From: Candidatus Zixiibacteriota bacterium
GTDB taxonomy: Bacteria; Zixibacteria; MSB-5A5; GN15; FEB-12
DNA length: 39,288 bases
NCBI GenBank assembly: GCA_040753875.1
Contig: JBFMDV010000008.1
Span: 1-39,288, forward strand
Reading direction: 5' to 3'
The notes beneath the pieces are model-generated. The model was not told the DNA's origin and did no database searches. It saw only the letters and a list, made by a program, of their open reading frames with translations. Shown one piece after another: positions 7,209 to 30,377 of this stretch. The number at the start of each line of letters is the position of its first letter. The first letter of the stretch is position 1. Position numbers and translations under genes: made by a program.

Positions 7209-7664
7209 ATGGCCATGTACTCGGCTATTACTCGCCGCAAACCGGGTCGGGGCAAAGTCTATTCTGTCTTGGGGGATCATGTCGCGTGCAAGCTGGTGGG
7301 CGAAGAATGCGGCGACGCCATCTCGGTGTTTGAGGTCACCGTAGCACCTCACAGCGGACCGCCGCCTCACGTCCATCTGCATGAAGAGGAAGCGTACTAT
7401 GTCTTGCAGGGGAGTTTCGATTTCCTGCAGGGAGAACGGATCATTCATGCAAAACCTGGCGAATTCATCCGTTTTGCGCGTCGGACCATGCATACGTACA
7501 AGAACACCGGGGACATGCCGGGTCGGCTCCTCGCGATTTATACACCGTCGGGTGTGGAACACTATTTTGAGGAGATGGACCGTCTGACCAGAGCCCAGGC
7601 GCTCGATGCGGAACGAGCACAGAAAGTGGCCAATCGGCACGCCATTCTGTCGTTTCCGTTGTGA
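7209..7664 (+). CDS. Cupin-domain protein
   Basis: The protein has 151 residues forming a single cupin barrel. Metal ligands fit motif 1 as His54, His56 and Glu61 (PPPHVHLHEEEAYYVLQG) and motif 2 as His95 (RRTMHTYKN), so a metal-binding cupin is likely. I chose ATG at 7209 because AGGAAAGG lies 7 bases upstream; an in-frame start at 7167 would add residues unlike the family. Small cupins of this type include dioxygenases, isomerases and sensors, and nothing here separates these options. Its 3' end faces the deacetylase gene with a gap of about 30 bp. Confidence 0.8.
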   Translation: MAMYSAITRRKPGRGKVYSVLGDHVACKLVGEECGDAISVFEVTVAPHSGPPPHVHLHEEEAYYVLQGSFDFLQGERIIHAKPGEFIRFARRTMHTYKNTGDMPGRLLAIYTPSGVEHYFEEMDRLTRAQALDAERAQKVANRHAILSFPL

Positions 7665-7695: not shown

Positions 7696-8769
7696 TCAGA
7701 ACAGCCGCCGCAGGTAACAGGCGAAGAGCGCCGGGGAGAAGCGGCCGGTGGCGGTCGATGATACACCCTCGTGCACGCCGACCCGCTGTAGTGCATATAT
7801 GTCACGCATCAGCGCCGTCCCTTCCGGGTTGTGCGTAGCGATACCGCAGTGATAGCCGGTCTCACGGGCAAGACGGCGGACCTCCTCGTTATGGTCGCCA
7901 TTGGGATAGGCTATTGAGGTTACGGGACGTCCGGTCTTCTCCTCGATGAGGAGTTTTGATTCCACCAGTTCGCGCCGGATCTCCGCCGACGACATCTGGG
8001 TGAGGATCTGGTGTGACCGGGCGTGCGACCCGATCTCGATGAGGGACGGGTCCATGGCGCGAATATCGTCCCACGAGAGTGTCCACCGCCGGTCGGGCCA
8101 TTTATCGTCAGTGAGTCGGCTCCGACACATTAACTCGCCCAGCGCCCTGCGGAGATTCTTCTGGTCAAGCTCTTTGAGCGCCTCCATGAATCTATCGTGG
8201 TCGGAAGCGACCCATTCAAGATAGTCGCGCGTCACCGTCTTCCCATGTTGCTCGCCGCCGTTGTCGCCGTACAGTTCCTGGAGCACGTCGGCGAGTTGCG
8301 CGGTGGTCAGTTTTCCTTCCTCCAGATAGAACCCGACTCGCAGAAACCAGAACTTCTCGGCGCTTTCGATGAAATCCGTGGAGACGAAGATGGTCGCCGG
8401 AAGGTCGTATTTCTTGAGTATCGGGTATGCCAGCGTGAAGTTGTCGCGCCAGCCGTCATCGAACGTGATCACCAGCGCTCGTCGCGGCAGTGGTGTCCCT
8501 TGTTGGAGATGTGCCACCAGCTGCCCAAGCGGAACGACTGAATACTCTTTCGCCAGGAACGCCATCTGTTTTTCGAACGCAGCCAGCGAAATGTTAATTC
8601 CCGCTTGCGTATACTCGGTCCGTGACCGGATATCCTCGACCACCCGATGATACATGAGTATCATGTACGGTTCTGTTTGGCCCGATAGTCGCCGCGCCAG
8701 GCTCAGGAGGGCCATCAAGCCGCTATAGTAGCAGGCCGAGGCCAACAGATGTTTGATAAAGCGTCTCAT
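7696..8769 (-). CDS. Polysaccharide deacetylase (NodB/CE4 family)
   Basis: The protein has 357 residues. CE4 motifs are present in order: TFDDGW with Asp104/Asp105, the zinc-ligand motif GSHARSH with His249 and His253, and a later AYPNGD. An N-terminal hydrophobic stretch (about 8-25) may anchor it to the membrane. The insert between motif 1 and motif 2 (about 135-230) is helical and common in exopolysaccharide-locus deacetylases. The family removes N-acetyl groups from amino-sugar polymers. It is the last gene of the minus-strand operon, 21 bp after the aminotransferase. Its paralogue at 16642-17676 is the first, so the operon begins and ends with a deacetylase. Confidence 0.9.
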   Translation of the reverse strand: MRRFIKHLLASACYYSGLMALLSLARRLSGQTEPYMILMYHRVVEDIRSRTEYTQAGINISLAAFEKQMAFLAKEYSVVPLGQLVAHLQQGTPLPRRALVITFDDGWRDNFTLAYPILKKYDLPATIFVSTDFIESAEKFWFLRVGFYLEEGKLTTAQLADVLQELYGDNGGEQHGKTVTRDYLEWVASDHDRFMEALKELDQKNLRRALGELMCRSRLTDDKWPDRRWTLSWDDIRAMDPSLIEIGSHARSHQILTQMSSAEIRRELVESKLLIEEKTGRPVTSIAYPNGDHNEEVRRLARETGYHCGIATHNPEGTALMRDIYALQRVGVHEGVSSTATGRFSPALFACYLRRLF

Positions 8770-8790: not shown

Positions 8791-9996
8791 TTACCCTTCG
8801 CACAGACAAGATACTATGCGGGCTACGTCCTTGTCACGCACATAAGGATGGGTCGGCAACGTGAACAGACAGGCCACCACACGTGCTGCTCCCGGGAACG
8901 GAGCTTCGGGGTTAACCAGGAGTGACCGCAGCTCTGGAATCGCCGCGATGGTAGACGGATACATGGTGGAGGACATGACGCCGGCATGTCGAAGCGACAT
9001 GACCATCCGGTCACGCGTGGTGCTGTCGGGCGCCAGGACCGGCAGGCGCAGGTACGCAGGGCAATCCGTTTCGGAATACCCGGCGATCTGGAATCGACCG
9101 GTTGCCAGTATCGGTTCTGCCAGTTTGCGGGCGTTATCCCTTCGAGTCTGAGTCAGAGAGCTGAGGCGATCAATGACGAGCGCGCCGAGCGATTGTTGAA
9201 GGCGTGAGAGTTTTGCTATTGGAAAGTCGGGATTGTATTCAGTCTCTCCGAGCCCCAGAAACGGCAGCAGATTGGGAAACCAATAGAACCGCGGATGAAG
9301 AAAGAGCTTGTACAAGAGAAGCTTGACAAGCAGCGCCAACCCCGTTATCACGCCGGGCGATGGGAACGCTTTGATCGCGCTGTCCAGGTATTCACCTAAC
9401 CGTTGATCGGAAGTGACGATCACGCCACCGGCATATGTGGAGAGGTTCTTCCCTCGATCAAGGCTGTAGAAGCCGCCATCTCCGAATGTTCCGGAAATTC
9501 GCCCGGCATGACTGGCGCCAAGCGACTGGGCGGCGTCATCGATCAGGAAAACATTCTTCGTCCTGCCAATGGACAATAACCGTTCCCAATTGCTCACGAT
9601 CCCGAACAGATTGCAGGCAGTGATCGCCAGGACATTCGAAAAGTCTATCGTCTCAAGTTCGTCGTATCGGTAGTCCATGGTGAGCGGGTCAATATCGACC
9701 AACCGTATTTTCAGTCCGGCCCGTGTCACTGAAGCCGCTACCGAGAAACAGGTGTAGGCAGGCATGACCACCTCGTTCCTCTGGTGACCGGCGATGTCGG
9801 CCATACCCTTCATCAGGAGATACTGCGCGGTCCGTCCGCTGTTGACCAGATGAATACTCAGGGCGCCCGTGAGCGAGACCAGTTTTTGCCCGAACAAGTC
9901 GGGCGAACCGGACGTTGCGCGACTCCAGAGCGCGTGCGCCAATTCATCAAGGGTGATCGGCGTGCCGGAAGGAGGGAGCAGATAGAAAGGTTTCAT
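8791..9996 (-). CDS. DegT/DnrJ/EryC1/StrS-family PLP aminotransferase
   Basis: The protein has 401 residues with the fold-type I sugar aminotransferase pattern. DDAAQSLG at 153-160 supplies the Asp that holds the PLP nitrogen, and Lys183 in RGKNLSTYAGG is the expected Schiff-base lysine. Family members transaminate nucleotide-linked keto-sugars. An unusual hydrophobic stretch (about 219-253, containing LALLVKLLLYKLFL) interrupts the usual middle region and may touch the membrane or an acceptor. No sugar dehydratase or epimerase is in the window, so the keto-sugar supply must come from elsewhere. It lies 10 bp after the FemAB-like gene in the operon. Confidence 0.85.
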   Translation of the reverse strand: MKPFYLLPPSGTPITLDELAHALWSRATSGSPDLFGQKLVSLTGALSIHLVNSGRTAQYLLMKGMADIAGHQRNEVVMPAYTCFSVAASVTRAGLKIRLVDIDPLTMDYRYDELETIDFSNVLAITACNLFGIVSNWERLLSIGRTKNVFLIDDAAQSLGASHAGRISGTFGDGGFYSLDRGKNLSTYAGGVIVTSDQRLGEYLDSAIKAFPSPGVITGLALLVKLLLYKLFLHPRFYWFPNLLPFLGLGETEYNPDFPIAKLSRLQQSLGALVIDRLSSLTQTRRDNARKLAEPILATGRFQIAGYSETDCPAYLRLPVLAPDSTTRDRMVMSLRHAGVMSSTMYPSTIAAIPELRSLLVNPEAPFPGAARVVACLFTLPTHPYVRDKDVARIVSCLCEG

Positions 9997-10006: not shown

Positions 10007-11038
10007 TCACGGGAAATTCCGGATCACCCGCGGTCCGAGCCAATTGGCAACCCTCAGCGGGAGTCTTTGCCACAACTTGATAAAGAGTCGGTATTTGGGA
10101 TTGCCGGGATTGATGGCGGGCAGGTCCGGCGCTTTATGGAGCGCGTACTGCCAGTGAAGTTGGGTGGGTGGTGCTCCCCATTGTTTCTTGAAATTAAACG
10201 TGGGGCCATCCCAACTCGAACGACCGAAGTCCAGATATTTCAGACCGTGCTCGCACCCGTACCTGATAACCGCCCAATAGAGCGCGTGATTGGGGCAGTA
10301 GCTGAGCGACCATCGGTACGATGATGCCGATGGCACATACACGCGATCTTTGAACGACAGGACCAGCCCCCCGGCGATAACTTCGTTGTCTCTCTTCACC
10401 AAAATAAGCTGGGCGCTGTTGGGAAACTGCCTGAGAATCGCGCGGAAGAAATGCTTTCCCCAAACCGGCGTGCCCAGATCCCGCATGTTGTACGCAAAGA
10501 CCCGATAGAATGAATCGAGCTTATCCACCCCTCCGAACTCGGTCGTCAGGCCCGACTTCTCCGATTTCCGGATTTGGTTTCGCAGCTTGGCGTCGAAGCG
10601 TTTCCATACGATTTCAGAATCGGACTCAAGAGGCATTAGGAATGTCACCTTATCGGTTCGGGTCGTGAGGTCCAGCGGTTGTTGTTCGACGGATCGGAAT
10701 TCAACAAATTCGACACCGTGCGCCGAGGCGAGTTGCCGCGCCTCAGCGAGCAATGCCTGTTCTGTACTTTCGTCATCGGCGCAGATACCGCCGTAATCAA
10801 TCCAGGGAAGACTCACTAAATACCTGGTCCGCCACCAGGTAGTAACCAGGAACAGCGGCAGGATTCCGGTGAGACGTTGGCCGTCGAGTGCCATTCGATA
10901 CAGCGGCGTGTGCCCCAGCCCTTCAGCCATGACATCGCGCCAGCCCGATCGGTGCGCAATTGTCGAGTGGGGAGAACGGGTAACGTACTCATCCCAGGCA
11001 TCGGCGTATGAGGAATCGTAGGGGGCTATTCGTGTCAT
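10007..11038 (-). CDS. FemAB-like protein, XrtA/PEP-CTERM-locus type
   Basis: The protein has 343 residues with tandem GNAT-fold character. The C-terminal half includes LRNQIRKSEKSGL, a basic helix typical of FemAB-like proteins, and the late motif YLDFGRSSWDGPTFNFKKQW, close to the FGRS(x)nGtxxFKxxW signature I associate with exosortase-A-linked FemAB proteins. FemABX enzymes transfer aminoacyl groups from tRNA to peptidoglycan precursors. Locus-associated members have no proven reaction, but acyl or aminoacyl transfer to a glycan intermediate is the usual guess. It lies between the O-antigen-ligase-like gene (41 bp) and the aminotransferase (10 bp). Confidence 0.85.
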   Translation of the reverse strand: MTRIAPYDSSYADAWDEYVTRSPHSTIAHRSGWRDVMAEGLGHTPLYRMALDGQRLTGILPLFLVTTWWRTRYLVSLPWIDYGGICADDESTEQALLAEARQLASAHGVEFVEFRSVEQQPLDLTTRTDKVTFLMPLESDSEIVWKRFDAKLRNQIRKSEKSGLTTEFGGVDKLDSFYRVFAYNMRDLGTPVWGKHFFRAILRQFPNSAQLILVKRDNEVIAGGLVLSFKDRVYVPSASSYRWSLSYCPNHALYWAVIRYGCEHGLKYLDFGRSSWDGPTFNFKKQWGAPPTQLHWQYALHKAPDLPAINPGNPKYRLFIKLWQRLPLRVANWLGPRVIRNFP

Positions 11039-11079: not shown

Positions 11080-12543
11080 TCAACCGACCTTCTCCAGCGC
11101 GGGCTGTGCAGGTGTTGACGGTTCGAGCAGAGTCCTCTGGCTGGAAACATGAAGTAAAATCATAATAAACGTGTACAGGATCCACAGATGTGGGTAATAG
11201 ATGGTCGACAGGAATGTCGCTCCCGCAAAATACGCGATCAGGCCGCCGATGAGAGAATTGGCCATGAAGCCCACTCGTTCGCTGTCGGCGGTATCCGGCA
11301 GTTTTCGCTTTATTCGTCGGAGTTGCTTCACCGCATACACGACCATGAACGCATAGAACAGGAAGCCGACTGTCCCGACCTCCGCCAGAACCTGCGGCAA
11401 TGTCCCGTGGAACGCACGACCCCAGTAGCGATCCGGATTCGACACGCCCCGGATATATCGCGGAAAATGTATGCCGCCGTTGCCGGGTCCGACACCGATG
11501 ACCGGATAATCAAGATACATACGTCCGGCCGCCTGCCAGGAGAGAAGCCGTTCCTCGGCCGTGCCTTCTTCGGTCTGAGTCATGGAGGCCATCTCGTGCC
11601 AGTAGTATCCCGGTGCCACTGCCGCGAATCCCAGCACGACTACGAACGCCATGGCGAGACTCCGTGCCTTGTTCGGCGAGTTCAGAAGGCAATACAGCAG
11701 CGCTGCCATGAGGGCCACCATGCCGCCGCGCGACATGCTGCTCACCACGCCCCACAGAAAAACCAGAAGGATAAACACGCTGATCAGTTTGAGCTTGATA
11801 CTTCGAAAATACTGGAACATGAAAAAAGCGAAGGGAACCCAGACCACCAGCGCCAGGGCAAAATCGTTCTCGTCCGCGATATAGCCGCTGCCCACCCGTC
11901 CGCTGGCCGCCTCCCCACGCACCACCACGTGAAGGACCTCGCGATTGATCGTCCCCTGGACTGCGAAATACAGGTTGATGAGCAGTACCAACCAGACCAG
12001 TTTGTTCAGGCGGTCAAGTGAGTCCACCACGTTGGTGGCGATCAGGAACATGATGAAGGTGATGAGCATGGCTTCGAGCGTGTCATAGGCCATCCTGTTG
12101 TTGGCCGCCATGGCGACGCCAAGCGCCATCACGCCGAGGAAACCGAGGTACCCCCAATTGAAGATCGACCACTTGATACTGGTCTTGCTTCGGATAATAT
12201 AAATGACCCAGGAGATAAGGGTCAGGATCTCCAGCACCATGGCCAGGCGAAGCGGCTGGAGCGCCGGAATGAAATCGTACGGGCGAAGCAGGTTGTACAA
12301 GTAGAAGAGATAGATGCCGACCCACGGATTTTTGAGCACCCATATACCAATCACGATGGCGGGAAACACGAACAGCATAACCGGTTGAAACTTTCCCGGC
12401 AGCAGCAAAAAAGTCACGGCGGCGGCGACCGAAAGGAGAATCAGCGCCGCATACCCGATCACCTTTCCCGTGATAATCGGAGCGGCTGACTCGATCCCGT
12501 GTGGTCGACCGGCTAAGACTGCAGATTTGTCTTCTGTTTCCAT
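11080..12543 (-). CDS. O-antigen ligase/Wzy-like polytopic membrane protein
   Basis: The protein has 487 residues with about 11-12 hydrophobic segments. The RGGMVAL segment, a large periplasmic-type loop with VGPGNGGIHFPRY, and then FHGTLPQVLAEVGTVG match the Wzy_C/O-antigen-ligase family. The latter segment contains the His of the ligase-type H(x)nE pattern. The layout and length recall the putative O-glycosylation ligase of exosortase-A loci. It could polymerise the repeat unit or transfer the glycan to an acceptor, and sequence does not decide which. ATG at 12541-12543 follows an AGG at about 6 bases. It lies 48 bp after the pyruvyl-transferase gene. Confidence 0.85.
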   Translation of the reverse strand: METEDKSAVLAGRPHGIESAAPIITGKVIGYAALILLSVAAAVTFLLLPGKFQPVMLFVFPAIVIGIWVLKNPWVGIYLFYLYNLLRPYDFIPALQPLRLAMVLEILTLISWVIYIIRSKTSIKWSIFNWGYLGFLGVMALGVAMAANNRMAYDTLEAMLITFIMFLIATNVVDSLDRLNKLVWLVLLINLYFAVQGTINREVLHVVVRGEAASGRVGSGYIADENDFALALVVWVPFAFFMFQYFRSIKLKLISVFILLVFLWGVVSSMSRGGMVALMAALLYCLLNSPNKARSLAMAFVVVLGFAAVAPGYYWHEMASMTQTEEGTAEERLLSWQAAGRMYLDYPVIGVGPGNGGIHFPRYIRGVSNPDRYWGRAFHGTLPQVLAEVGTVGFLFYAFMVVYAVKQLRRIKRKLPDTADSERVGFMANSLIGGLIAYFAGATFLSTIYYPHLWILYTFIMILLHVSSQRTLLEPSTPAQPALEKVG

Positions 12544-17933: not shown

Positions 17934-18932
17934 ATGAGTATACAGTACCGTAGACTTGATTTCCATGCCGAGGGCCCCCAAGGGCTATTTGATCTGTACG
18001 CCGCCACATACGGCAGTTCTCAGCCTCTCGAGCGCCGCTGGCAATGGCAGTACATAAGCCATCCGAGAAGTTCCGAGGTGGTGGTACTGGTGGCCGAGGC
18101 GGATGGCAAGCTGGTGGGGACATTGTCGCATTTTCCATCGGACGTCCTGATTGGCGGCGCGCGTTATCCGGGGTTCTTTGCTTCGGATTCCATGGTGCAC
18201 CCCGAGTACCGACGTCGTGGCATCATGGATACGCTCCTGAAAACCTGCGCCGATACTCTGCCGCTCATGTACGCCAAAGGGACCACCGACAGCATGTACG
18301 GCGTTCGGCTGAAATTCGGTTTCCGTCCAGTTTTGCCTAACGGCTACCTGCTCAGTATTGTCGCCCCGTCCGGGTGGGCCCTTTCCAAGCTCCGGCTGAT
18401 GCGCGGCGACGGTCACGAAGACCGGCTTGCCGAATCGGCGGATTCCGAGTTTCGCTTTGTCGATTCTGTCGGTCCGGAATTTGACGAGTTCTTTCAACGG
18501 GCAGCCCCGCGATATCCGGCGATAGTCGTTCGCGACGCTGCTTACATGACGTGGCGATATCTGCGCCATCCGTACAAACGATACCATGTCATCTACCGGA
18601 CGGTCGACGGCAAACTGTCGTCGGTTCTGGTGCTGCGAGTGGCGGGACGGATTGGCCATATCGTGGATATCGTGTGGGATATCGGCGCCGGCGATGAACC
18701 GGACGCCGCGATACGCTTTGCCAGGAAATGCCTCAGACGAGCCGGCTTCACCAATTTGTATTGCTGGTGCACGTCGACAGAACTGCGGCGGCGATTGGCC
18801 CGCCGTTGGTTCTACGATCTCAAGGAGACTCATCGCCTCACGATGTTCGCCTCGCCCGAGATACTGGACAGGGTCGCAGGAGGGGGGCGGATTCACCTGG
18901 TGGACGGGGACGGTGACTTCGAATTCCTGTAA
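17934..18932 (+). CDS. GNAT-family N-acetyltransferase
   Basis: The protein has 332 residues. The acetyl-CoA-binding segment is SMVHPEYRRRGIMDTLL (about 86-102), which fits the GNAT motif A R-x-x-G-x pattern. A second half with LRVAGRIGHIVDIVWDIG and a WFYDLKETH segment suggests a two-domain GNAT of the Eis/glycan-cluster sort. The acceptor is unknown; an amino sugar or the aminotransferase product is possible from context. It is transcribed divergently from the main operon and converges with the BioF2-like gene, leaving a gap of 20 bp. No clear Shine-Dalgarno precedes ATG 17934. Confidence 0.75.
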   Translation: MSIQYRRLDFHAEGPQGLFDLYAATYGSSQPLERRWQWQYISHPRSSEVVVLVAEADGKLVGTLSHFPSDVLIGGARYPGFFASDSMVHPEYRRRGIMDTLLKTCADTLPLMYAKGTTDSMYGVRLKFGFRPVLPNGYLLSIVAPSGWALSKLRLMRGDGHEDRLAESADSEFRFVDSVGPEFDEFFQRAAPRYPAIVVRDAAYMTWRYLRHPYKRYHVIYRTVDGKLSSVLVLRVAGRIGHIVDIVWDIGAGDEPDAAIRFARKCLRRAGFTNLYCWCTSTELRRRLARRWFYDLKETHRLTMFASPEILDRVAGGGRIHLVDGDGDFEFL

Positions 18933-18952: not shown

Positions 18953-20104
18953 CTATTTGGTCGGTGTCCTGTCGACCGGCCTGCTCTGCATCTTCTTCAC
19001 TACAGCCCGCGCGAATTTTCGCGCGGAGCGGACCGCCAGATAGAAGAGGGACCTGTTGCTGCTGCGAAAGAACTGCAGAGTCACGTCGCGCCGTTCTTCA
19101 CTAGTCCAGTGGTACTTGTACGGCTCGTCTCCTCTGAGCATATCAAACTCCCGACATCCGCGCGCGGTTAATGCCTCAACCATATACGCCATCACCACAT
19201 GCCCCATGCTCACTTTGGGATCGACCGTCGTGCTCATCCCCATGACATACCCATAGTGTACCCCGCGATGGTCAAAGCCGTAGGTGGCTGCCAGGGGGGT
19301 CTCATCCAGATACAGCACAAATAGCCCCACCTGTCCTTTGGGGAAATACCGTTCGGAGATCAGCTCATGAAAACGGCGAAACGATGGGCTGGCAAAACTC
19401 CCCGGGAGCCCGCGTGCCTGCCACGCCCGTTGATGCAGATCCACCAACGTCCCCATGAAGCGCGGCAGATCGTCGGTGCGGGTGCATTGTTCGAAATGGA
19501 GGTTTCCTTTGGCCTCCAGCATTCGTCGGCTCTTGCCCACGTTATAGCGGGTTTTGCTTCCCAAACTCGCCATGAACGTCTGAGCGTCGTTCGGCAGAAG
19601 GATGTACGGACAAGAGGTGATGTCCGCAATTTCGGCTACAGCGCATCTCGGTTCCTCCCCTGCCTGTTTCCGGAAAATGGCCAGCGCGGTCGAACCGGCA
19701 TCCATGGCGTCGAGCCGAATTACATCCCACTCTCTCGTCAGCGGACCCCAGAGATATCGCCAGATAGCCGCAGCCGCCTCGAAAGCGTGTCCTTCGTCAA
19801 GCAGCAGGTCCAAATGGTCCGGGCAGGCCTCGCCGCTCCCCAGTATCCGCAATTCGCGCAGCGGTACCATGCCGTAGTGACGGCGTGTCTGCACGTAAAA
19901 CGGGCCAAGACCCACCAGTTTGTCCTCCCGGTATACTGCCAGCAGCAGCAAGGGCTGCCGGTTGAGATAGACGCCGAGCCAGACAGATAACCAATCGAAG
20001 GTCAGGAAAAGGGGCTGACGTCGACATCGCGCCAACAAGCCGTCCCATTCACGCGCGAGCTCGTTGAACGCGGCAATATCCCGAAAAACCCGAATACTGT
20101 ACAC
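18953..20104 (-). CDS. GNAT-fold acyltransferase, BioF2/CelD-like
   Basis: The protein has 383 residues. It has the SKTRYNVGKSRRMLEAKG basic segment and the late EFDMLRGDEPYKYHW motif, both typical of the Acetyltransf_6 (BioF2-like/CelD) family. These are double-GNAT proteins related to FemAB and are found in cellulose and exopolysaccharide clusters. The C-terminus is basic. The reaction is unproven; acyl transfer to a glycan is the working idea. It is one of four FemAB/BioF2-type genes in this window and is separated from the minus-strand operon by the GNAT gene. Confidence 0.8.
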   Translation of the reverse strand: MYSIRVFRDIAAFNELAREWDGLLARCRRQPLFLTFDWLSVWLGVYLNRQPLLLLAVYREDKLVGLGPFYVQTRRHYGMVPLRELRILGSGEACPDHLDLLLDEGHAFEAAAAIWRYLWGPLTREWDVIRLDAMDAGSTALAIFRKQAGEEPRCAVAEIADITSCPYILLPNDAQTFMASLGSKTRYNVGKSRRMLEAKGNLHFEQCTRTDDLPRFMGTLVDLHQRAWQARGLPGSFASPSFRRFHELISERYFPKGQVGLFVLYLDETPLAATYGFDHRGVHYGYVMGMSTTVDPKVSMGHVVMAYMVEALTARGCREFDMLRGDEPYKYHWTSEERRDVTLQFFRSSNRSLFYLAVRSARKFARAVVKKMQSRPVDRTPTK

Positions 20105-20383: not shown

Positions 20384-22252
20384 ATGTTTGGATGTTTTGC
20401 CGCCGTCGGCTCTGCCGCCTTGGCGTTGACAGAAGAAAAAATTTCCTCCCTCTGGCCGCTTGATTCCGACCGTCAACTGCTGACGGTTTCACCCCAGGTT
20501 AAGCTGGCTCGTTTCGTGCCCAAAAGGTTCAGCGGTGATCCGGGATTTGTCCGGTCCCAGGACATGCAGGTCGTAGTATGTATCGATGGCTATCTGATAG
20601 CTGACAGTTCGGTTGCCCATAGCGGGTTGGTCCGACAAGCAGCATTGTTCGCCGAGGAGTGCAGGCGAGTCGGCACGTATGAAGCGCTGCGTTCACTCGA
20701 AGCCGGAGCGTTCACGATTCTGGTGGTCGACCTGTTTCGCCAGGAGTTCTTCGCCGTCGGCGACCCGTTCGGTTCACTCCTGACTTTCCATAGCCATCTG
20801 CGTGATGGCTGGTTGGTTTCAACCAACCCCCTGTCACTGGCCAAGTCGGGTCTGATCGACCTTGAGCCCGATATGACGGCCCTGGCGCAGTGGGTTCAGT
20901 TTGGTTACGCTTTTGGCGATCGCTATGCGGTTCGCGGCATCAAACTGCTTCAGATAGGGCAGTTGATCCGTTTCAACTTGAGATCGCTGCAGGGCGAGGT
21001 GCCATATGAGCCCAACATCGTCTGGAACGTACCACAGCATGCCCGGACACCGTCGCCCGATGAAGTCGCCGACAAGTTTCTGGCTTCCTGTCGCCTTTTA
21101 CAGAGGATCGACCCTCGGCCGGCTCATCTCCAGAGTGCCGGGCTGGACTCGCGTCTCATTCTGGCCGCCTGGCCTGACGGATACAATCCGCCATGCTATA
21201 CCTATGGCGATCCGACCTCCCACGAGATACCGATTGCGCGTTCCATTGCGGACGCCCGAGGTTCCGCGTGGATACACACCTGGCAACACGGCGACGAGGT
21301 GGCGGAGAATATCGAGACGATGTTCCGTGCCGGCGGCAACATGATGTGGCCGGACCGCCTGTTCGCCGCCCGCGAAATGGTGCGCAACGGACACTGCGGA
21401 GTGCTCGACGGACTGGCAGGTGACGCCTGTCTCGGAGGTTCCCTGTATGGATTCAACCGTTTCTTCCCTCGATCAGGAAGGTGGGGGAACCTGTTCTCTC
21501 GCTTGATCGACGAAAGGGTTTCGCGCGTCGGCATTGACCGGCTTGCCGAGGTCATTTACACAGCCGTTTTGCAGGTGCACGACCTCGAATCGCTCCGCCC
21601 ATATGTCACCAGTGATTTCATTGCCGCGGTAAGGGCCGAGAAGCTCCGGATTCTCGAGGATATCCATAGCGAGTTGAAACTGCTACAGCCCGCCAACTCT
21701 GATTCGGTAGCGTTGCTCTGGCGCAATGTGCTTCTGAACAACCGCGGCCCCCACATGACCATACTGCAGAGTGTCATGTGCCGAACGAGTGTCAACGTCT
21801 ATACGCCATTCGTAAACGACCGGGCCTTTGTCACCCTGCTTATGGGACTCAAGCCGGAATATATTGCTTATCACCGGCTCTATCTGAAGGTGTATCGCAG
21901 GCGGTTTCCGAAATACGCGGACCTTCTCTGGAACGCTAGCCTGCTGCCGGTACGCCGCCCGGTGCTGAATCATAAACTCTCCTTGGCGTTGGTTGCCCGC
22001 GGCATAACGATCCCCTTCGTTTCCGGCAGGGCTGGGGGGCGCCAGCGCGATCCCAACGGCTGGGCAATTTGGCTCCAGGAGAGCCGGGCACTCAGAGAGT
22101 ATGCTTCTGATTGTCTTCAGAAGGGGGCCGTGCTTGATTCAAATCGAGCTGCGAATACGTTTCGGGAGATCGCCGAGGGGCGACGCGAGGGGGGCGGCAA
22201 ATTATTCCATCTCGCTGCCGTGGCCCGTTGGCTGGCTCTGGCAAGGTCCTGA
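20384..22252 (+). CDS. Degenerate asparagine-synthetase-like protein (paralogue 1)
   Basis: The protein has 622 residues with the two-domain layout of class-B asparagine synthetase. The N-terminus reads MFGC where active enzymes have MCGI, so the catalytic Cys of the glutaminase domain is replaced by Phe. The RHRGPD-type segment is also missing. The synthetase domain starts near 230. Its ATP loop is SAGLDS (251-256) rather than SGGxDS, followed by LDGLAGDACLGG (341-352), which keeps the family GD and GG positions. The C-terminus has RDPNGWAIWL and a KLFHLAAVARWLAL helix shared with the next gene. Ammonia-independent or non-glutamine chemistry, or a binding role, is inferred. It forms a tandem pair with 22399-24276, with which it aligns without gaps for the first 350 residues. 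Confidence 0.8.
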   Translation: MFGCFAAVGSAALALTEEKISSLWPLDSDRQLLTVSPQVKLARFVPKRFSGDPGFVRSQDMQVVVCIDGYLIADSSVAHSGLVRQAALFAEECRRVGTYEALRSLEAGAFTILVVDLFRQEFFAVGDPFGSLLTFHSHLRDGWLVSTNPLSLAKSGLIDLEPDMTALAQWVQFGYAFGDRYAVRGIKLLQIGQLIRFNLRSLQGEVPYEPNIVWNVPQHARTPSPDEVADKFLASCRLLQRIDPRPAHLQSAGLDSRLILAAWPDGYNPPCYTYGDPTSHEIPIARSIADARGSAWIHTWQHGDEVAENIETMFRAGGNMMWPDRLFAAREMVRNGHCGVLDGLAGDACLGGSLYGFNRFFPRSGRWGNLFSRLIDERVSRVGIDRLAEVIYTAVLQVHDLESLRPYVTSDFIAAVRAEKLRILEDIHSELKLLQPANSDSVALLWRNVLLNNRGPHMTILQSVMCRTSVNVYTPFVNDRAFVTLLMGLKPEYIAYHRLYLKVYRRRFPKYADLLWNASLLPVRRPVLNHKLSLALVARGITIPFVSGRAGGRQRDPNGWAIWLQESRALREYASDCLQKGAVLDSNRAANTFREIAEGRREGGGKLFHLAAVARWLALARS

Positions 22253-22398
22253 ACGACACCGGTTCGTTCGATCTTACGCTCTATCGACCGCCGATTCCGA
22301 TCATGCAATGGTGAGCTTCTTCTGCCGATGTATGACATAGTGCGGGCGCCAGCTCCGGTTCCTGGCGGTATCGTTACGGCGAAAGGTCACCGATCATA

Positions 22399-24276
22399 AT
22401 GTACGGGCAACTCGTAGCTTGCGGCTCGGCCGCGCGGTTACTCAGTCACGAATATCTCCTTAAGGCCTGGCCAATCAAGTCCCATACCGAGATCATCGCT
22501 CCTCATCCGGAGATCGTTCTCGCCCGTTTCACACCCCCACAGACCGAGCACGAAACGTCATTCCTCTGGTCGGATGACAAAGCGGTGCTCGTTTCGGTCG
22601 ACGGTTTTCTTCTGACTGACCGCATCCGCCTATCCGCTCCCCACAGCCAGCACGCCATATCGTTCGCCAATCTTTGCAGTGGTGAGGGGTATGAGGCCGC
22701 CTGGCGGAGTATCGTCGCCGGGTCGTTCAACCTGGTGGTGGTTGATCTGTCGCGGCATGAACTGCACGTGACCAAAGACCACATTGGTACGTTCTCTCTT
22801 TACCACAGTCCAGTCGATGGGGGCTGGTTGTTGTCATCGAACCCGGTGGCGCTGGCATTAACCGGCTTGGTGAACACGGAGATCGACCTGACCGCCTGCG
22901 CCGAATGGGCGTTTATCGGCTACACCATCGGTGATCGCTACATGACGAAGGGAATCAGGAACGTCAGGCCCGACACGGCATTCCGCTGGGACCTCATCGG
23001 CGCCAAAGGGGGATTCGACGCCAATCCGGATTCTCCATGGAACATTCTGCCCGACCGCAAGTCCCCTCCTGTCGACGATGCCATCGATAGTCTGGTCGAA
23101 GCATGCCGGCGCGTCAGTCTGGTCGACCCCGCGCCCGCCAATTTCCAGAGCGCCGGATGGGATTCGCGGGCTATCCTGGCCGCCTGGCCCGACAGTTACA
23201 ATCCAACCTGCTATACCTATGGCGACCCCGATTCACACGAGGTGCATATCGCCCACACCGTGGCAGATACGCGCGCGTCCCGGTGGGTGCATGTATGGCC
23301 CGGCGGCGACGAAGCTGCGCACCACCTGGAAACGTTGTTCGACATGACGGGACACATCGTATTTCCGGATCGGTATTTCACAGCGAGGCAGATGCGCCAG
23401 GATAGCCACACCGGCGCGCTGGACGGATTCATCGGCGGGGTGCTGGTCGGCCACGGGTATTACACGTGCGACCGCCATTTCTCACCTGTGGTGCGCGTGG
23501 TCCGCTTAGCGGGCCTCTATCGCGATCAGAGTGTGTCGGCGGTCGGTTTCGACAGGGTTGCTGAAGCGCTGTTGGATGATATTCAGGAGATTTCTGATCC
23601 GGCCGAGCTTTGTCGATATGTCACGTATGACGTGAGCGGCGCGTTGAACCGCGAAAAACCGGGCATCCTTCAGGATATTCGCGATGAGTTGACGCGTCTC
23701 AAGCAGAGTTCGGATTCGCTGTCGGTGCTGTGGCGAAACTTCTTCATGGCGAACCGAAGCGCCCACGCCATCGTCCAGCAGGCGGTTCTGAGTCGGGCGT
23801 TTGTGCACATCTACTGCCCGTTCTCCGGCGACCTGGATTTCCTGCGGCTACAGATGCGGATTCGGCCCGCGGACGCCGCGCATCATCGCTACTACCGCGA
23901 GATCTATCGCCGGAAATTTCCAAAGTTCGGCAAAATCCTCTATGGCGACAGCCTGATGCCGCTCCATGTGGCACCTCTGCGTCACCGGATCTCGCGCATG
24001 ATCATTGAAGAAGGGTACACCATTCCGGGCCTGACCGCCAACGCCAATGGGCGGGAGCGGGATGCCAATAGCTGGGGGCGGTGGCTGCGCCAGAGCGAGC
24101 GGCTTCGGCTGACCACGCTGCAACTGCTTCGCGACGGCGGCATGATCGACGAGCAGCGAGCCGCCACAACTCTGCACGAAGTCTGCAACGGCTCACGCCG
24201 ATGGTTTGGCAAACTGTTCCATCTGGCGAGTATCGCCCGATGGATGTCGCTTTCAGGAAATAATTCCGGCTATTGA
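22399..24276 (+). CDS. Degenerate asparagine-synthetase-like protein (paralogue 2)
   Basis: The protein has 625 residues and is a clear tandem duplicate of 20384-22252. Position 2 is Tyr (MYGQ), so the glutaminase Cys is again absent. The ATP loop is SAGWDS (251-256), and CYTYGDPDSHEV (271-282) is shared with paralogue 1. The second synthetase motif has changed from LDGLAGDACLGG to LDGFIGGVLVGH, losing Asp347, so this copy is further from an active enzyme. The downstream segments RDANSWGRWL and GKLFHLASIARW match paralogue 1. GAAAGGTC precedes the ATG. The 3' end overlaps the convergent acetyltransferase by 7 bases. The function is unknown; it may be a scaffold or allosteric partner of its neighbour. 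Confidence 0.8.
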   Translation: MYGQLVACGSAARLLSHEYLLKAWPIKSHTEIIAPHPEIVLARFTPPQTEHETSFLWSDDKAVLVSVDGFLLTDRIRLSAPHSQHAISFANLCSGEGYEAAWRSIVAGSFNLVVVDLSRHELHVTKDHIGTFSLYHSPVDGGWLLSSNPVALALTGLVNTEIDLTACAEWAFIGYTIGDRYMTKGIRNVRPDTAFRWDLIGAKGGFDANPDSPWNILPDRKSPPVDDAIDSLVEACRRVSLVDPAPANFQSAGWDSRAILAAWPDSYNPTCYTYGDPDSHEVHIAHTVADTRASRWVHVWPGGDEAAHHLETLFDMTGHIVFPDRYFTARQMRQDSHTGALDGFIGGVLVGHGYYTCDRHFSPVVRVVRLAGLYRDQSVSAVGFDRVAEALLDDIQEISDPAELCRYVTYDVSGALNREKPGILQDIRDELTRLKQSSDSLSVLWRNFFMANRSAHAIVQQAVLSRAFVHIYCPFSGDLDFLRLQMRIRPADAAHHRYYREIYRRKFPKFGKILYGDSLMPLHVAPLRHRISRMIIEEGYTIPGLTANANGRERDANSWGRWLRQSERLRLTTLQLLRDGGMIDEQRAATTLHEVCNGSRRWFGKLFHLASIARWMSLSGNNSGY

Positions 24277-24989
24277 CGTTGCTGGTCGCTGGTCGTGTCC
24301 GAACGGGGGGAATCGGTATCGGGATCCCGTTCCAGCACAGAGCCATCACCGCGGTGCAGGCCGTTGATCGCTTGTTCGTAGAGATACCCGAACAACCGGC
24401 GGTTGTCGTACTCTCTCAGCACCACCCGGCCGGGGTTGCCGGCAACAAGACAGCCGTCGGGTACAGATCGCGACAGAATACAGCCGGGGGCGATAGTGAC
24501 GCCATTCCCGATCTGGATAGGTCCCGAAATAACCGCACCGGTTCCTATCCAGACGTTATCGCCGATAGTCGGCAGGCCAACCGCTCCCTCGGTCTGACCT
24601 ATCCCGATTGTCACGTTGTGGGTCAGACTGCAGTTGGCACCGATCGTGGTCGGTCCGATATAAATGGTGCCGATATGACCTATGTAGAGACCCGGACCGA
24701 AGCTGCCATCCTCAAGGCTCATGTGGTAGAACATCTTCATCCAGCAACTCAATACCAGATGGATCAACTTGAACGGAAGCCCCAGGAATCTGTTCGCTTT
24801 GTAGACGCGGCCAGCCCAGGCGCCGAAGCGGTAAGCCATGACGCAGTGAAAGCCGTAATTGAATACCCACGTGAACAGCCGTCGCAGCATCGACGGACTC
24901 TCTGTCCCATGAGTTATGCGGTAATATTTCCGTCGGTCGGTCTTGAAATACTTGACGTTCGCCATTACCGTTTGTGTCCGTTGCGCCAT
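24270..24989 (-). CDS. Left-handed beta-helix acetyltransferase, serine acetyltransferase-like
   Basis: The protein has 239 residues. An N-terminal helical region (about 15-95) precedes hexapeptide repeats (TIYIGPTTIGANCSL, PTIGDNVWIGTGAVI, IQIGNGVTIAPG), which end in VAGNPGRVV, the usual end of CysE/colanic-acid acetyltransferase-type O-acyltransferases. His124 in LTHNVTIG is in the position of the catalytic His. With no cysteine-synthesis gene around, sugar O-acetylation is more likely than serine acetylation. ATG at 24963-24965 is an alternative start that would drop 8 residues. Convergent overlap with the upstream gene on the other strand is 7 bp. Confidence 0.85.
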   Translation of the reverse strand: MAQRTQTVMANVKYFKTDRRKYYRITHGTESPSMLRRLFTWVFNYGFHCVMAYRFGAWAGRVYKANRFLGLPFKLIHLVLSCWMKMFYHMSLEDGSFGPGLYIGHIGTIYIGPTTIGANCSLTHNVTIGIGQTEGAVGLPTIGDNVWIGTGAVISGPIQIGNGVTIAPGCILSRSVPDGCLVAGNPGRVVLREYDNRRLFGYLYEQAINGLHRGDGSVLERDPDTDSPRSDTTSDQQRQ

Positions 24990-25182: not shown

Positions 25183-26157
25183 TTGGAGCTTACGAAAGAC
25201 AGTCTGAAAATCGATGCGGCCCGAGTGGCCGATGACCTCTGCGTGGCCATCCGTCGCCAAATTCGCGGAAAAATGAAGAAAACCGGCGCCGTCGTTGGTG
25301 TCTCCGGAGGGATCGATTCGTCCGTGTGCGCTGCCCTTTGCAGCAAGGCGCTGGGCCCAGAGCGAGTCCTTGGGGTCATGATGCCGGAGCAGGACTCATC
25401 GCCCCAAAGCGAGAAACTGGCCCGCCTTCTGGCTACGACATTCGGGTTTGAAGTGATCAAAGAGGATATCTCCGCTGGTTTGGCGGGACTCGGCTGCTAC
25501 CAGAAGCAGGATGAAGCGATTAGAGCGGTGTTCCCCGAATTCGACCGGTCATGGCGCTTCAAGATCACCATCCCGACCAATATCCTCGAGAAAGAGACGT
25601 TCAATTTTTTTCACCTGACCATCGAGAACAAAGCAGGTGAGACCAGGACCGCCCGTATGCCGGTACAGCCGTACCTGCAGGTGGTGGCGGCCACCAATCT
25701 CAAACAGCGCCTCCGTATGACCACTCTGTATTATCATGCTGAGCGTCTGAACCGTGCGGTGATAGGGACCGGCAACAAAGACGAGCACGAACAGGGGTTC
25801 TTCGTAAAGTATGGCGATGGCGGCGCCGACCTGAAACCGATAGCCCATTTGTTCAAGATGCAGGTGTTCCAACTGGCCGAATATCTGGGCGTGCCGAAGG
25901 AAATTGTCGGCCGAACGCCCACTACTGATACCTACAGCGCCGAGGTCACCCAGGCGGACTTCTTCTTCGGGCTTGACTTCTATCGGATGGACATGCTCTG
26001 GTATGCGCTGGAGCACAACATTCCGGCGGCGAAGACGGCCAGGGTGCTGGGGCTGAGCGTCGAACAGGTGGAGCACGGGTACGCCAACATTCAGCGCAAG
26101 ATCACGGCCACCGAGCCGCTGCGGATGGCGCCGCTTCATGCCGATGAAACCGAGTGA
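25183..26157 (+). CDS. NadE-like ATP-pyrophosphatase (ammonia-dependent NAD synthetase family)
   Basis: The protein has 324 residues. The PP-loop SGGIDSS is at 41-47, and the segment GTGNKDEHEQGFFVKYGDGG followed by ADLKPIAHLFKMQV (about 192-228) is diagnostic of NadE. There is no glutaminase domain. The region after it, RTPTTDTYSAEVTQADFFFG, differs from the canonical NadE text that I recall (PTAGLWxGQTDExE). That suggests altered substrate use, and such variants occur in polysaccharide loci. The start is TTG at 25183 with AGGA about 8 bases upstream. The ACP start follows 16 bp after its stop. It may be a housekeeping NAD synthetase, but the position between glycan genes and the ACP argues for a role in carboxyl activation or amidation. 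Confidence 0.8.
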   Translation: MELTKDSLKIDAARVADDLCVAIRRQIRGKMKKTGAVVGVSGGIDSSVCAALCSKALGPERVLGVMMPEQDSSPQSEKLARLLATTFGFEVIKEDISAGLAGLGCYQKQDEAIRAVFPEFDRSWRFKITIPTNILEKETFNFFHLTIENKAGETRTARMPVQPYLQVVAATNLKQRLRMTTLYYHAERLNRAVIGTGNKDEHEQGFFVKYGDGGADLKPIAHLFKMQVFQLAEYLGVPKEIVGRTPTTDTYSAEVTQADFFFGLDFYRMDMLWYALEHNIPAAKTARVLGLSVEQVEHGYANIQRKITATEPLRMAPLHADETE

Positions 26158-26173
26158 GGAGAAACGACACGAG

Positions 26174-26434
26174 ATGGCTGTAGATACACAAACGCTGCGC
26201 AGCGAACTGCGTCAATTCGTCGTAGATTCGTTTTTGATCGGTGAAGAGGACGCCGGCTTCGGCGATGCTGATTCGTTCATGCGGTCCGGCATTATTGATT
26301 CCACCGGCATTCTGGAACTCACCGCGTTTTTGGAGCAGAGATACGGCGTGACGGTTGAGGACAACGAAATGGTGCCCACGAATCTCGACTCGATAGAGAA
26401 CCTGGTAACCTATCTCACACGCAAGCTGAGCTGA
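26174..26434 (+). CDS. Acyl carrier protein
   Basis: The protein has 86 residues and is an acidic, helical ACP. The phosphopantetheine site is Ser43 in IIDSTG, with the following ILELTAFLEQRYGV helix typical of stand-alone carrier proteins in ligase-linked systems. I chose ATG at 26174 because GAGGAG lies at 26157-26162; an in-frame ATG at 26138 would overlap NadE and add a charged leader. It lies 66 bp before the AMP-forming ligase, which could load it. Carriers of this sort hold an acyl or aminoacyl thioester for later transfer. Confidence 0.9.
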   Translation: MAVDTQTLRSELRQFVVDSFLIGEEDAGFGDADSFMRSGIIDSTGILELTAFLEQRYGVTVEDNEMVPTNLDSIENLVTYLTRKLS

Positions 26435-26500: not shown

Positions 26501-28060
26501 ATGAATGTACTTGAGCTTCTGGAACGAACCGCCGTTGCCCACCCCCAACGAGTGGCGGTCACCGACCAGGAGCGGCAGATAACATACCGAGAACTGGCGA
26601 ACGAAGTTGCCAACGTCGCGACTCATCTGACGAAACTTCCACTTCCGTCCGGCGCACGCGCGGCAATCCTGTACACCAACAGTATCGAGTACGTGGTCGC
26701 CTACTTTGCGGTATTTAAGGCTGGCCTGACAGCTGTTCCGCTCGACACCTCACTCACGCCGGACAGCCTCGCGTATATACTGGCCGATTGCCAGGTTCAA
26801 GTGCTCATTTGCGAACCCAGATTCAAGCGACATCTCAAGCGGATACTGCCGGTCGGTTCGTCGGTCCGGTATCTGGCGATTGACGCGACCGTATCGCTTG
26901 ACCATACTGGCGTATCGGTTCTTCCGTTCAAGACTATGCGGTTCGCTTCGGCACAAGAAGCAGATGCGAGCATTACCGGCGCGCCCGCTGTCTCGATGAT
27001 TCGCAGAGACCGGACGCACGAGTTGGCGGCGATATTTTACACGTCCGGAAGCACCGGCGCCTCGAAAGGGGTGATGCTGTCACACCTGAATCTGGTGTCG
27101 AATACGCTGGCGACGGTTGAATATCTCCGACTAACGTCCGACGACAGTGTCATGGTGATCCTGCCGTTTTACTATATCTACGGCAACTCTCTGCTGCTGA
27201 CCCACGTCGCCGTTGGCGGACGCTGCGTGATAGACAACCGGTTCATGTATCCGGAAGTAGTGCTGGACACGATGGGGGCCGAACGGGTGACCGGATTTTC
27301 CGGCGTACCTTCGAACTTCATGATCCTGCTCAACAACTCAACCTTCACTACTCGCAAGCTCGAATCCTTGCGATACTTCACCCAGGCCGGCGGGGCGATG
27401 GCGCCTGAAGTCACGCGCCGCCTGATGGACGCGTTTCCACACAAACAGATCTTCATCATGTACGGCCAGACCGAAGCTTCACCGCGTGTCTCATGGCTGC
27501 CGCCTGAGCGACTTGCCGAAAAACTGGGCTCGGCCGGCATCGAAGTACCGGGTGCCAAAGTTACAATCCGCGATGACCAAGGCAGAGTGTTACCCGCAAA
27601 CGAAGTCGGTGAGCTGGTGGTTGAGGGGGACCTGGTGATGATGGGGTACTGGAACCAGCCGGAAGAAAGCCGACAGGTACTCAAAAATGACTGCCTGTAC
27701 ACCGGCGACCTGGCTCGCATGGATACGGATGGTTACATCTTCATCGTCGGACGGAAAAAGGAAATCATCAAGACCGGCGGCAATCGGGTCAGCGCGAAGG
27801 AAGTTGAAGAGTGTTTGTTGGAGCATCAGAAGATATCCGAGGCCAGCATCATTGGGGTTCCTGATGATATCCTGGGCGAAGCAATTCGTGCCGTTATCGT
27901 GCTCAAGCCGGGCATGACCGCCGACACCAGCGAGATCAAGAGCCACTGCAAGCGGAAGCTGGCCGATTTCAAAGTGCCCAAGCAAATCCGGTTTGTGGAA
28001 CAACTCCCGAAGTATCAGTCCGGCAAGGTGAACAAGATGGCCCTGAAGGAGCAGTCGTGA
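26501..28060 (+). CDS. AMP-forming acyl/aminoacyl ligase (class I adenylating enzyme)
   Basis: The protein has 519 residues. The adenylation motifs are complete: FYTSGSTGASKGVMLSH (about 178-194), YGQTEASPR (about 320), YTGDLARMDTDGY, then GRKKEIIKTGG, and the C-terminal Lys in PKYQSGKVNK. The family forms an acyl-adenylate and passes it to CoA or a carrier thiol. The upstream ACP is the obvious acceptor. The substrate cannot be read from sequence. It resembles the acyl-CoA ligases seen in exosortase-A loci. ATG 26501 has no strong ribosome site, which may point to translational reinitiation after the ACP. Confidence 0.9.
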   Translation: MNVLELLERTAVAHPQRVAVTDQERQITYRELANEVANVATHLTKLPLPSGARAAILYTNSIEYVVAYFAVFKAGLTAVPLDTSLTPDSLAYILADCQVQVLICEPRFKRHLKRILPVGSSVRYLAIDATVSLDHTGVSVLPFKTMRFASAQEADASITGAPAVSMIRRDRTHELAAIFYTSGSTGASKGVMLSHLNLVSNTLATVEYLRLTSDDSVMVILPFYYIYGNSLLLTHVAVGGRCVIDNRFMYPEVVLDTMGAERVTGFSGVPSNFMILLNNSTFTTRKLESLRYFTQAGGAMAPEVTRRLMDAFPHKQIFIMYGQTEASPRVSWLPPERLAEKLGSAGIEVPGAKVTIRDDQGRVLPANEVGELVVEGDLVMMGYWNQPEESRQVLKNDCLYTGDLARMDTDGYIFIVGRKKEIIKTGGNRVSAKEVEECLLEHQKISEASIIGVPDDILGEAIRAVIVLKPGMTADTSEIKSHCKRKLADFKVPKQIRFVEQLPKYQSGKVNKMALKEQS

Positions 28061-28394: not shown

Positions 28395-30377
28395 ATGTGC
28401 GGCATAGCAGGATTCTTACAGTTGGGCCAACCGGCGACACTCGATCGCGAACTGCTTGCGCGTATGGTATCAACCATCAGACACCGCGGCCCCGATGAAT
28501 TCGGTGCCTATTTCGATAACCGCTGCGCCATCGGCCACGCCCGACTCTCGATCATCGACCTCTCCTGCGGCCAGCAGCCGCTATCTAACGAGGATGGCTC
28601 GCTGTGGATCGTCTTCAACGGTGAAATCTACAACTACATTGAATTGCGTCCGGAACTCGAGAAGCTGGGGCACCGGTTCCGCACTCACTCCGACACGGAA
28701 GTGATAGTTCATGCGTATGAACAATGGGGGAAGGAGTGCCTGAATCGTTTCAATGGCCAATGGGCGTTTGCGATTTATAACACGAAGAGCCAGTCCCTGT
28801 TTCTCTCACGAGACCGAATGGGGAAACGCCCGATCTTTTACACGACACACCAGGGACGTTTCTATTTTGCGTCCGAGATCAAAGCGATCTTCTGTGACCG
28901 CTCGATTCCACGCCGTCTGGACCGTCACGGTCTGAGCGAAATCTTCACCTGGTGGACCACCGCGCCACCCCGCACGGCCTTCGAAGGGATCAGCGAGATG
29001 GAGGCGGGAAGTTGGCTTGAGGTGAAGGAGGGGAAGGTCACGACCGGTCGATACTGGAATCTGTTGTTCCCGGAACAGTTCGACCGCAACCGCTCCGCCG
29101 ATTCCTGGGCTGAAGAATTGCATGCACTGCTTGTCGACTCCGTGCGCCTTCGGCTGCGTGCCGATGTGCCAGTCGGTGCCTACTTATCCGGTGGGCTCGA
29201 TTCCTCCGCCACCACGGCGCTCATCCGGAATTTTACGACCAATCGGGTCGAGACATTCTCGATCGCCTTTCATGACAAGGCGTACGACGAATCCGGCTAT
29301 CAGAACGAGATGGCGCAGTTCCTTGGGACGAGCCATCACCAGATAAAATGCAGCTATCAGGATATTGCCACGGCGTTCCCCAGGGTCATCTGGCACACCG
29401 AACGGCCAATTGTCCGGACCGCCCCAACCCCCATGTATCTGCTGTCAGGCTTAGTGCACCAGCACAATTTCAAAGTAGTGCTGACCGGCGAAGGGGCCGA
29501 TGAACTGTTCGGCGGCTACGACATCTTCAAGGAGACGCTGATCCGACGGTTCTGGGCGCGGAATCCTGATTCCCAGTGGCGCCCGCTTCTCCTGCGCCGC
29601 TTGTATCCTACGCTTCCGTTATCCCCCGCGCGGGCTCGGTTTTATCTCGAGGAGTTCTACAGGGCAGGTCTGAAGCAATTCGACTTATACCACTACTCGC
29701 ACATGCAGCGCATAAATACGACCAGTCGTATCAGAGACTTTTTCACGCCCGATGTCAAAGCTTCATTGACTGATTATGATCCGGTACAGGCATTCGGTCG
29801 CGATCTCCCTGCCGCCTTTTACAAGTGGCATCATCTGGCCAGGGCGCAGTATCTGGAAGCACGCTCGCTTTTGTCCGGCTATCTGTTGTCGTCGCAGGGG
29901 GACCGGATGGCGGCCGCTAACGCAGTCGAGGGGCGGTACCCGTTTTTGGATCACCGGGTGATCGAATTCGCGGCGACAGTGCCCCCCTCGCTCAAACTGC
30001 TCGGTCTGACGGAAAAGTACATTCTGAAGAAGGCGATGTCCAGGGAGCTGCCGAAAAGCATCCTGTCACGTGTTAAGCAGCCGTATATGGCGCCGGATTC
30101 GAATAGCTTCACGCAGGCGGATTCTCCGGCCTACATTGCCGAGGCGCTGTCGCCGGATGCCGTGAAGCGTGTGGGAATCTTCAATCCGGTGATGTTAACC
30201 AAGCTGCGGGAGAAATGCACGAAGCTTTCGCACGCGCATTTGTCATTCAAGGACAACATGTCGTTTATCGGGATACTGTCGACGCAGTTGCTGGCGGAGC
30301 AGTTTATCGACAACTTCACGCTTGGCACCCCGGTTCCGCGCGAGGTGTTCAAGACCTGGGTGGATAATGCCGCGTAG
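28395..30377 (+). CDS. asnB: Asparagine synthetase (glutamine-hydrolysing), AsnB type
   Basis: The protein has 660 residues with an intact class II glutaminase domain: MCGIAGF, so Cys1 after Met removal; RHRGPDE; FNGEIYNY. The synthetase domain has SGGLDSS (about 265-271) and LTGEGADELFGGY (about 361-373). It is thus catalytically complete, unlike the two paralogues at 20.4-24.3 kb. In glycan loci such enzymes may amidate a sugar carboxylate rather than aspartate. ATG at 28395 is chosen because the conserved Cys must be second; AGG lies 9 bases upstream. It follows the ligase after a 334-bp repeat-bearing gap. The 3' end converges on the SGNH-like gene, 6 bp apart. Confidence 0.9.
   Translation: MCGIAGFLQLGQPATLDRELLARMVSTIRHRGPDEFGAYFDNRCAIGHARLSIIDLSCGQQPLSNEDGSLWIVFNGEIYNYIELRPELEKLGHRFRTHSDTEVIVHAYEQWGKECLNRFNGQWAFAIYNTKSQSLFLSRDRMGKRPIFYTTHQGRFYFASEIKAIFCDRSIPRRLDRHGLSEIFTWWTTAPPRTAFEGISEMEAGSWLEVKEGKVTTGRYWNLLFPEQFDRNRSADSWAEELHALLVDSVRLRLRADVPVGAYLSGGLDSSATTALIRNFTTNRVETFSIAFHDKAYDESGYQNEMAQFLGTSHHQIKCSYQDIATAFPRVIWHTERPIVRTAPTPMYLLSGLVHQHNFKVVLTGEGADELFGGYDIFKETLIRRFWARNPDSQWRPLLLRRLYPTLPLSPARARFYLEEFYRAGLKQFDLYHYSHMQRINTTSRIRDFFTPDVKASLTDYDPVQAFGRDLPAAFYKWHHLARAQYLEARSLLSGYLLSSQGDRMAAANAVEGRYPFLDHRVIEFAATVPPSLKLLGLTEKYILKKAMSRELPKSILSRVKQPYMAPDSNSFTQADSPAYIAEALSPDAVKRVGIFNPVMLTKLREKCTKLSHAHLSFKDNMSFIGILSTQLLAEQFIDNFTLGTPVPREVFKTWVDNAA

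Follow-up and report, generated by a model that had tools for sequence, protein, structure and literature searches.

What can an asparagine synthetase (AsnB)-like protein do in a polysaccharide gene cluster once its glutamine-hydrolysing residues are gone? The question is raised by two consecutive genes on a contig of Candidatus Zixibacteria (C8, 39,288 bp, from assembly G000 of 3.29 Mb), which was analysed whole and is called the window here. Both are open reading frames (ORFs) for AsnB-like proteins on the + strand: copy 1 (20384..22252, 622 aa) and copy 2 (22399..24276, 625 aa), within an exopolysaccharide (EPS) locus. Based on our findings, the most likely reading would be that the proteins bind ATP, do not depend on glutamine and take part in polysaccharide tailoring, with a probability of about 0.42, and the pair itself is best read as old, diverged paralogues of a narrow, uncharacterised AsnB-like branch. 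The AsnB two-domain architecture, a glutamine amidotransferase (GATase) domain dead as a glutaminase, a conserved PP-loop region, and EPS synteny in the window and in two further genomes (G115 and G090) are each directly observed or strongly supported.

Sequence and fold of the pair

The two proteins begin with Met-Phe-Gly (copy 1, 20384..20392, +) and Met-Tyr-Gly (copy 2, 22399..22407, +) in place of Met-Cys-Gly, as claimed by a first-pass annotation of this DNA. The open frames start only 8 (copy 1) and 21 (copy 2) codons 5' of the listed ATG, which is the first start codon in each; therefore, no upstream MCG start has been overlooked, and that explanation is ruled out by the frame lengths. 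The annotation had also read SAGxDS for SGGxDS in both copies and a loss of Asp347 in copy 2. Both readings hold: residues 251-257 are SAGLDSR in copy 1 and SAGWDSR in copy 2, and residues 342-347 are DGLAGD (21407..21424, +) and DGFIGG (23422..23439, +), respectively. The copies are 40% identical, and their gap-free alignment, said to span the first 350 residues, in fact runs over about 438.

Neither copy matched any model in a Pfam scan at E 1e-3, the asparagine synthase model included, and their scores against TIGR01536 (AsnB) are 39.1 and 33.8 bits, which at a cutoff of 267 places them outside AsnB proper. Homology with AsnB is nonetheless not in doubt, the similarity being much too strong for a chance match. 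The profile of the family described below aligns with AsnB in hhalign at 98.7% (E=2e-16, 255 columns), and Foldseek matches to AsnB-fold structures reach E=1e-13 to 1e-12. The similarity of profile and fold covers both domains that define the superfamily, the class II GATase fold and the N-type ATP pyrophosphatase, in agreement with the AsnB-like domain order first proposed. An AlphaFold2 model of copy 1, built from five family rows and no AsnB rows, has a poor second domain (predicted local distance difference test, pLDDT, 50) and still matched TsnB9, human ASNS, beta-lactam synthetase and AsnB. With AsnB rows added (alignment A5), the model of copy 2 reached a pLDDT of 74 and a predicted template modelling score (pTM) of 0.82; its top PDB matches, partly circular because of those AsnB rows, are TsnB9 (E 9.5e-14, template modelling score TMt 0.60), beta-lactam synthetase and E. 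coli AsnB (TMt <=0.60).

A narrow family of six members

The pair belongs to a family of six stop-free members in four assemblies. Three are in the window genome; the third copy (C9:8411-10279, locus L010) directly follows an OPT oligopeptide transporter gene. Among 132 species of the phylum, close members in other genomes were found only in G115 (CP070742) and G090 (DSEQ01000010), one each. A scan of 84,980 species (one genome each), using short seeds from the family alignment that relatives can escape, added a single member on a 3.5-kb contig (L038) of a metagenome-assembled genome labelled Proteobacteria. The GNAT and AMP-ligase neighbours on that contig resemble those of Zixibacteria; possibly the bin is wrong, or the genes were transferred.

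Five members have their N-terminus, and in these residue 2 is F, Y, Y, L and F, never Cys. The loop motif is S[AS]GxDSR in 6/6 members and SGGxDS in 0/6, and it fits the PP-loop pattern of the superfamily, S-x-G-x-D-S. In a tree of 15 rows, the six members form one clade (100/100) in which copies 1 and 2 are not joined as sisters. Recent tandem duplication is thus not supported, the copies being about as distant from each other as from the members in other genomes. Of the earlier idea of one duplicated family, the common origin stands, and the simple tandem duplication lacks support.

Are the two genes decaying AsnB copies? Several canonical catalytic residues are missing, which could be taken that way, but the frames are intact in all six members and the lack of Cys2 is shared by every N-terminus (5/5). 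Identity between copies 1 and 2 at codon positions 1/2/3 is 53/65/37%, other pairs being similar, so that position 2 is far better kept than position 3. The nonsynonymous divergence between them (dN 0.58) is well under the synonymous one (dS 2.9), the latter being saturated here and for most pairs, hence giving no per-copy ratio. Judged from these sequence comparisons, long-term purifying selection on the family is strongly supported. The first-pass annotation had proposed a repurposed, selected family and had named intact-Cys orthologues at the same loci as a sign of decay; none was present in the syntenic loci examined, and the proposal is borne out by the six intact members, none with SGGxDS. 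As the nearest relatives are themselves GATase-dead, decay is scarcely credible, and we reject it on the intact frames, the codon positions and the six members.

A conserved ATP loop and replaced catalytic residues

Conservation in the family is highest at residues 246-281, the PP-loop block, where 20/36 residues are invariant across the six members. This exceeds the count in each of 10,000 sets of 36 randomly drawn positions; such sets disregard the clustering of conservation along the protein, and sliding windows place the maximum at 246-281 too. In copy 1 the block (21119..21226, +) reads P.PAHLQSAGLDSRLILAAWP..Y...CYTYG.P.S.E, and its counterpart in copy 2 lies at 23134..23241 (+). The view that the ATP loop is damaged is therefore not upheld: SAGxDSR retains the S, the second G, the D and the S, and no part of the protein is better conserved than the stretch around it. 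On this evidence the ATP site has not obviously been destroyed, and nucleotide binding by the family seems plausible.

In E. coli AsnB, Glu348, Asp351 and Lys449 serve the synthetase site; in the AsnB encoded in the window, alignment to 1CT9 places Glu366, Asp369 and Lys561 at these positions. DGFIGG of copy 2 falls on TGEGAD in the hhalign profile alignment of the family with AsnBs. A MAFFT alignment with AsnBs (A5) shifts GEGADE by about 10 residues, and we adopted hhalign and the smaller alignments (DG..G). By this placement, DGLAGD of copy 1 also stands in the place of TGEGAD; copy 1 has lost the equivalent of Glu348 and retains that of Asp351, and copy 2 has lost both. In the GATase domain, the oxyanion and glutamine-binding Asn-Gly-Glu (NGE) has become Asp-Gly-Tyr or Asp-Gly-Phe (DGY/DGF) in the family. 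With neither Cys2 nor NGE, this domain is without residues for glutamine hydrolysis, and glutamine use by the family appears very unlikely.

Relation to a wider group and to known systems

The family profile matches another AsnB-like group of Zixibacteria, with the loop SGGxDSR, at 99.8% (E=1e-27, 506 columns), a stronger and longer match than that to true AsnB. The members of this group mostly start with MPGIFG... and carry NGIFGG. Like the family, most of them lack Cys2 and have lost Glu348 and Asp351, and they are similar to it in the C-terminal half. Unlike the family, they retain SGG (SGGLDSR), and most match PF00733 and GATase_7; identity in the aligned columns is about 19%. Because the wider group also lacks these residues, the degeneracy is not peculiar to the pair, as had been assumed, and is largely common to a broader class; the features that belong to the family alone are its SAG/SSG loop and M[FYL]G start. 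Some genes of the SGGxDSR group lie near Wzx/Wzy-type genes, and some are annotated "asparagine synthase-related protein"; we know of no function for the group. In the 15-row tree, its position relative to the family and to AsnB involves long branches, and that placement was not used.

A second branch of AsnB-like proteins, which carry SAGWDSR and lack an MxG start, was seen in G090 (L036:11571-13346, -) and in G026 (L037:2-1252, -); the G090 gene shares a contig with the family gene of that genome. Distant plasmid relatives are annotated AsnB, N-acetylglutaminylglutamine amidotransferase or "asparagine synthase-related protein". Searches of copy 2 against phages and of copy 1 against plasmids returned no match, and PADLOC found no defence-system match.

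Several known systems can be compared with the pair. It shares with AsnB (TIGR01536, PF00733) the order of a class II GATase-like N-domain and a PP-loop C-domain, and differs from it in having no Cys2, no Glu348 and no conserved Lys449. Beta-lactam and carbapenam synthetases (1JGT, 1Q15), like the pair, have a GATase domain without Cys on the AsnB fold, and they retain a Tyr-Glu dyad and a catalytic Lys. They were among the Foldseek matches to the pair models, but the family has Leu, Phe or Tyr at the dyad position, no invariant Lys and, in the pair, an EPS setting. The signature of these synthetases (Tyr at the Glu348 position, a partner Glu and Lys) is thus not reproduced, and the partner Glu is not placeable. 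Beta-lactam synthetases are N-type ATP pyrophosphatases in which an internal amine takes the role of ammonia (PMC6594144). WbpS and WbqG are AsnB-type enzymes of polysaccharide loci that act on uronic acids to give uronamides (PMC7468200). The pair resembles them, and eps_aminotran_1 (TIGR03108), as an AsnB-type protein in a polysaccharide locus, but it lacks Cys2 and scores 21.7 and 26.2 bits against a TIGR03108 cutoff of 816.9, well outside that family. AsnB-like enzymes of pathways for ribosomally synthesized and post-translationally modified peptides (RiPPs) widen the chemical range further (PMC13060819). Lasso peptide cyclases (NF033535), also of the AsnB family, do not make asparagine and are possibly comparable to the pair in this. 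NF033535 did not match the pair at E 1e-3, and no lasso or RiPP genes are among the annotated window ORFs, a small precursor ORF not having been searched for. A lasso or beta-lactam pathway was set aside for want of a model match. Our literature search found nothing on this protein class.

Possible role in an exopolysaccharide locus

The core of the EPS locus consists of a polysaccharide deacetylase (7696..8769, -), a DegT-family aminotransferase (8791..9996, -), a FemAB family XrtA/PEP-CTERM-associated protein (10007..11038, -; TIGR03019, 337 bits, cutoff 260) and an O-antigen ligase/polymerase (Wzy; 11080..12543, -; TIGR03097-like, below cutoff). Further deacetylases, Wzx, glycosyltransferases and a pyruvyl transferase complete the EPS inventory of the window. 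An exosortase is encoded on contig C6 (PF09721, 243.6 bits); with the TIGR03019 FemAB in the locus and an exosortase in the genome, the locus can be classed as exosortase-associated. The models that the O-antigen ligase/polymerase and the AMP-ligase resemble below cutoff are exosortase-associated too. In G115 and G090, the family gene likewise has orthologues of the deacetylase, DegT, FemAB and Wzy genes in its neighbourhood. We consider that the pair probably modifies a sugar, or serves as a helper protein, in a surface-polysaccharide cluster.

We suggest the following scheme for the tailoring role. The synthetase domain would still bind ATP and would convert a carboxylate to its adenylate, the substrate being an acid, an amino acid or a uronic acid from the polysaccharide pathway. 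The adenylate would then be joined to an amine of non-glutamine origin, with catalytic residues that differ from Glu348, Asp351 and Lys449 of AsnB. The former GATase domain would have a structural part or form a substrate site, as in beta-lactam synthetase. Copies 1 and 2 may each have a substrate of their own or may work together as a heteromer. In its most specific form, the scheme describes a new AsnB-fold ligase, a diverged paralogue pair that would form acyl adenylates or amides for polysaccharide tailoring with neither the glutaminase nor the three AsnB residues, possibly as a heteromer of an active copy 1 (Asp347) and a pseudo-subunit, copy 2; we hold this version to be rather unlikely.

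Several observations weigh against a tailoring enzyme. The residue at the Glu348 position in the six members is L, F, L, Y, F and Y, never Glu; Asp at the Asp351 position occurs only in copies 1 and 3, the other members having Gly or Asn there; and with no Lys shared by all six members, the family has no conserved equivalent of Lys449. Because of these losses, an AsnB-type adenylation mechanism seems unlikely. The missing Glu348 equivalent in both copies, the changed NGE, the lack of an invariant Lys and the third copy go beyond the first-pass annotation. In the copy 2 model, residues 339-378, the active-site loop with its motif, have a pLDDT below 50, which may come in part from the misalignment in A5. 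The third copy, beside its transporter gene, is not in an EPS locus, and seven other examined loci with the same EPS core have no family gene, which makes the family an accessory of such loci; FemAB is found in 41/132 genomes of the phylum versus 3 for the family.

The same losses could mean that the family consists of pseudoenzymes, dead AsnB-like proteins that act as nucleotide-binding regulators or as partners or scaffolds for the AsnB, the NadE-like protein or the AMP-ligase of the cluster. A complete AsnB (28395..30377, +; MCG, SGGLDSS, GEGADELFGG; TIGR01536, 535 bits, cutoff 267) lies 4.1 kb downstream, where the first-pass annotation had placed one at about 4 kb, and the NadE-like N-type ATP pyrophosphatase is encoded in the same cluster (25183..26157, +; PRK00876 model, 438 bits). 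A conserved PP-loop would fit ligand binding alone, but it is at the ATP loop that conservation peaks. Moreover, the DNA read around the family genes of G115 and G090 held no good match to AsnB, which is thus not an obligatory neighbour, and the third copy is outside any such cluster. We regard a pseudoenzyme as a serious, if tentative, alternative, a close second to the tailoring role.

Another possibility is that the pair carries out other chemistry of N-type ATP pyrophosphatases, for example sulfur or nucleotidyl transfer, instead of acyl adenylation leading to an amide. The PP-loop fold is common to LarE and others (PMC6594144), and the residues that amide-forming members use for catalysis are missing here. 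But in Foldseek the copy 2 model matches LarE weakly and in part (E about 0.1-0.2), and the invariant residues hold no conserved Cys pair or sulfur-transfer signature, Cys271 being the sole invariant Cys of the family. Such chemistry appears quite improbable to us.

It is of interest that AsnB-like proteins with no usable glutaminase are present in polysaccharide loci of this phylum, relatives elsewhere being named only "asparagine synthase-related". A family that keeps the PP-loop region and replaces the usual catalytic residues makes the question of enzyme versus pseudoenzyme directly testable, and it could give a name to an uncharacterised tailoring step of exosortase-linked surface polysaccharides.

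Other genes around the pair

A GNAT acyltransferase gene (17934..18932, +), with similar GNATs near the family members in G115, G090 and L038, and a gene for a FemAB/GNAT-like protein (Acetyltransf_6; 18953..20104, -) precede copy 1. Copy 2 is followed by a hexapeptide-repeat acyltransferase gene (EpsC/CysE-like; 24270..24989, -) and, beyond the NadE-like gene, by those for an acyl carrier protein (ACP; 26138..26434, +) and the AMP-forming acyl ligase (26501..28060, +; TIGR03098-like, below cutoff). A GNAT and AMP-ligase pair stands beside the family gene in G115, G090 and L038, and also occurs in G043, which has no family gene.

NadE-like proteins are encoded near ACP and AMP-ligase genes in several EPS loci, namely in the window, at L035:3458-4432 and 6362-7336, and at L063:6299-7267, and the protein of the EPS loci may be an enzyme repurposed for amide formation. 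A separate NadE-similar frame of 585 residues is on contig C24. Elsewhere in the window, an Acetyltransf_6 protein (33935-35194) has a partial match of 144 bits to NF047385 (GNAT acyltransferase, cutoff 775), which probably reflects the shared GNAT fold. The ORF at 2333-3691 has weak cytochrome c3/c7 and dockerin matches, and ORFs at the beginning of C9 (L010) have C-terminal stretches resembling its own.

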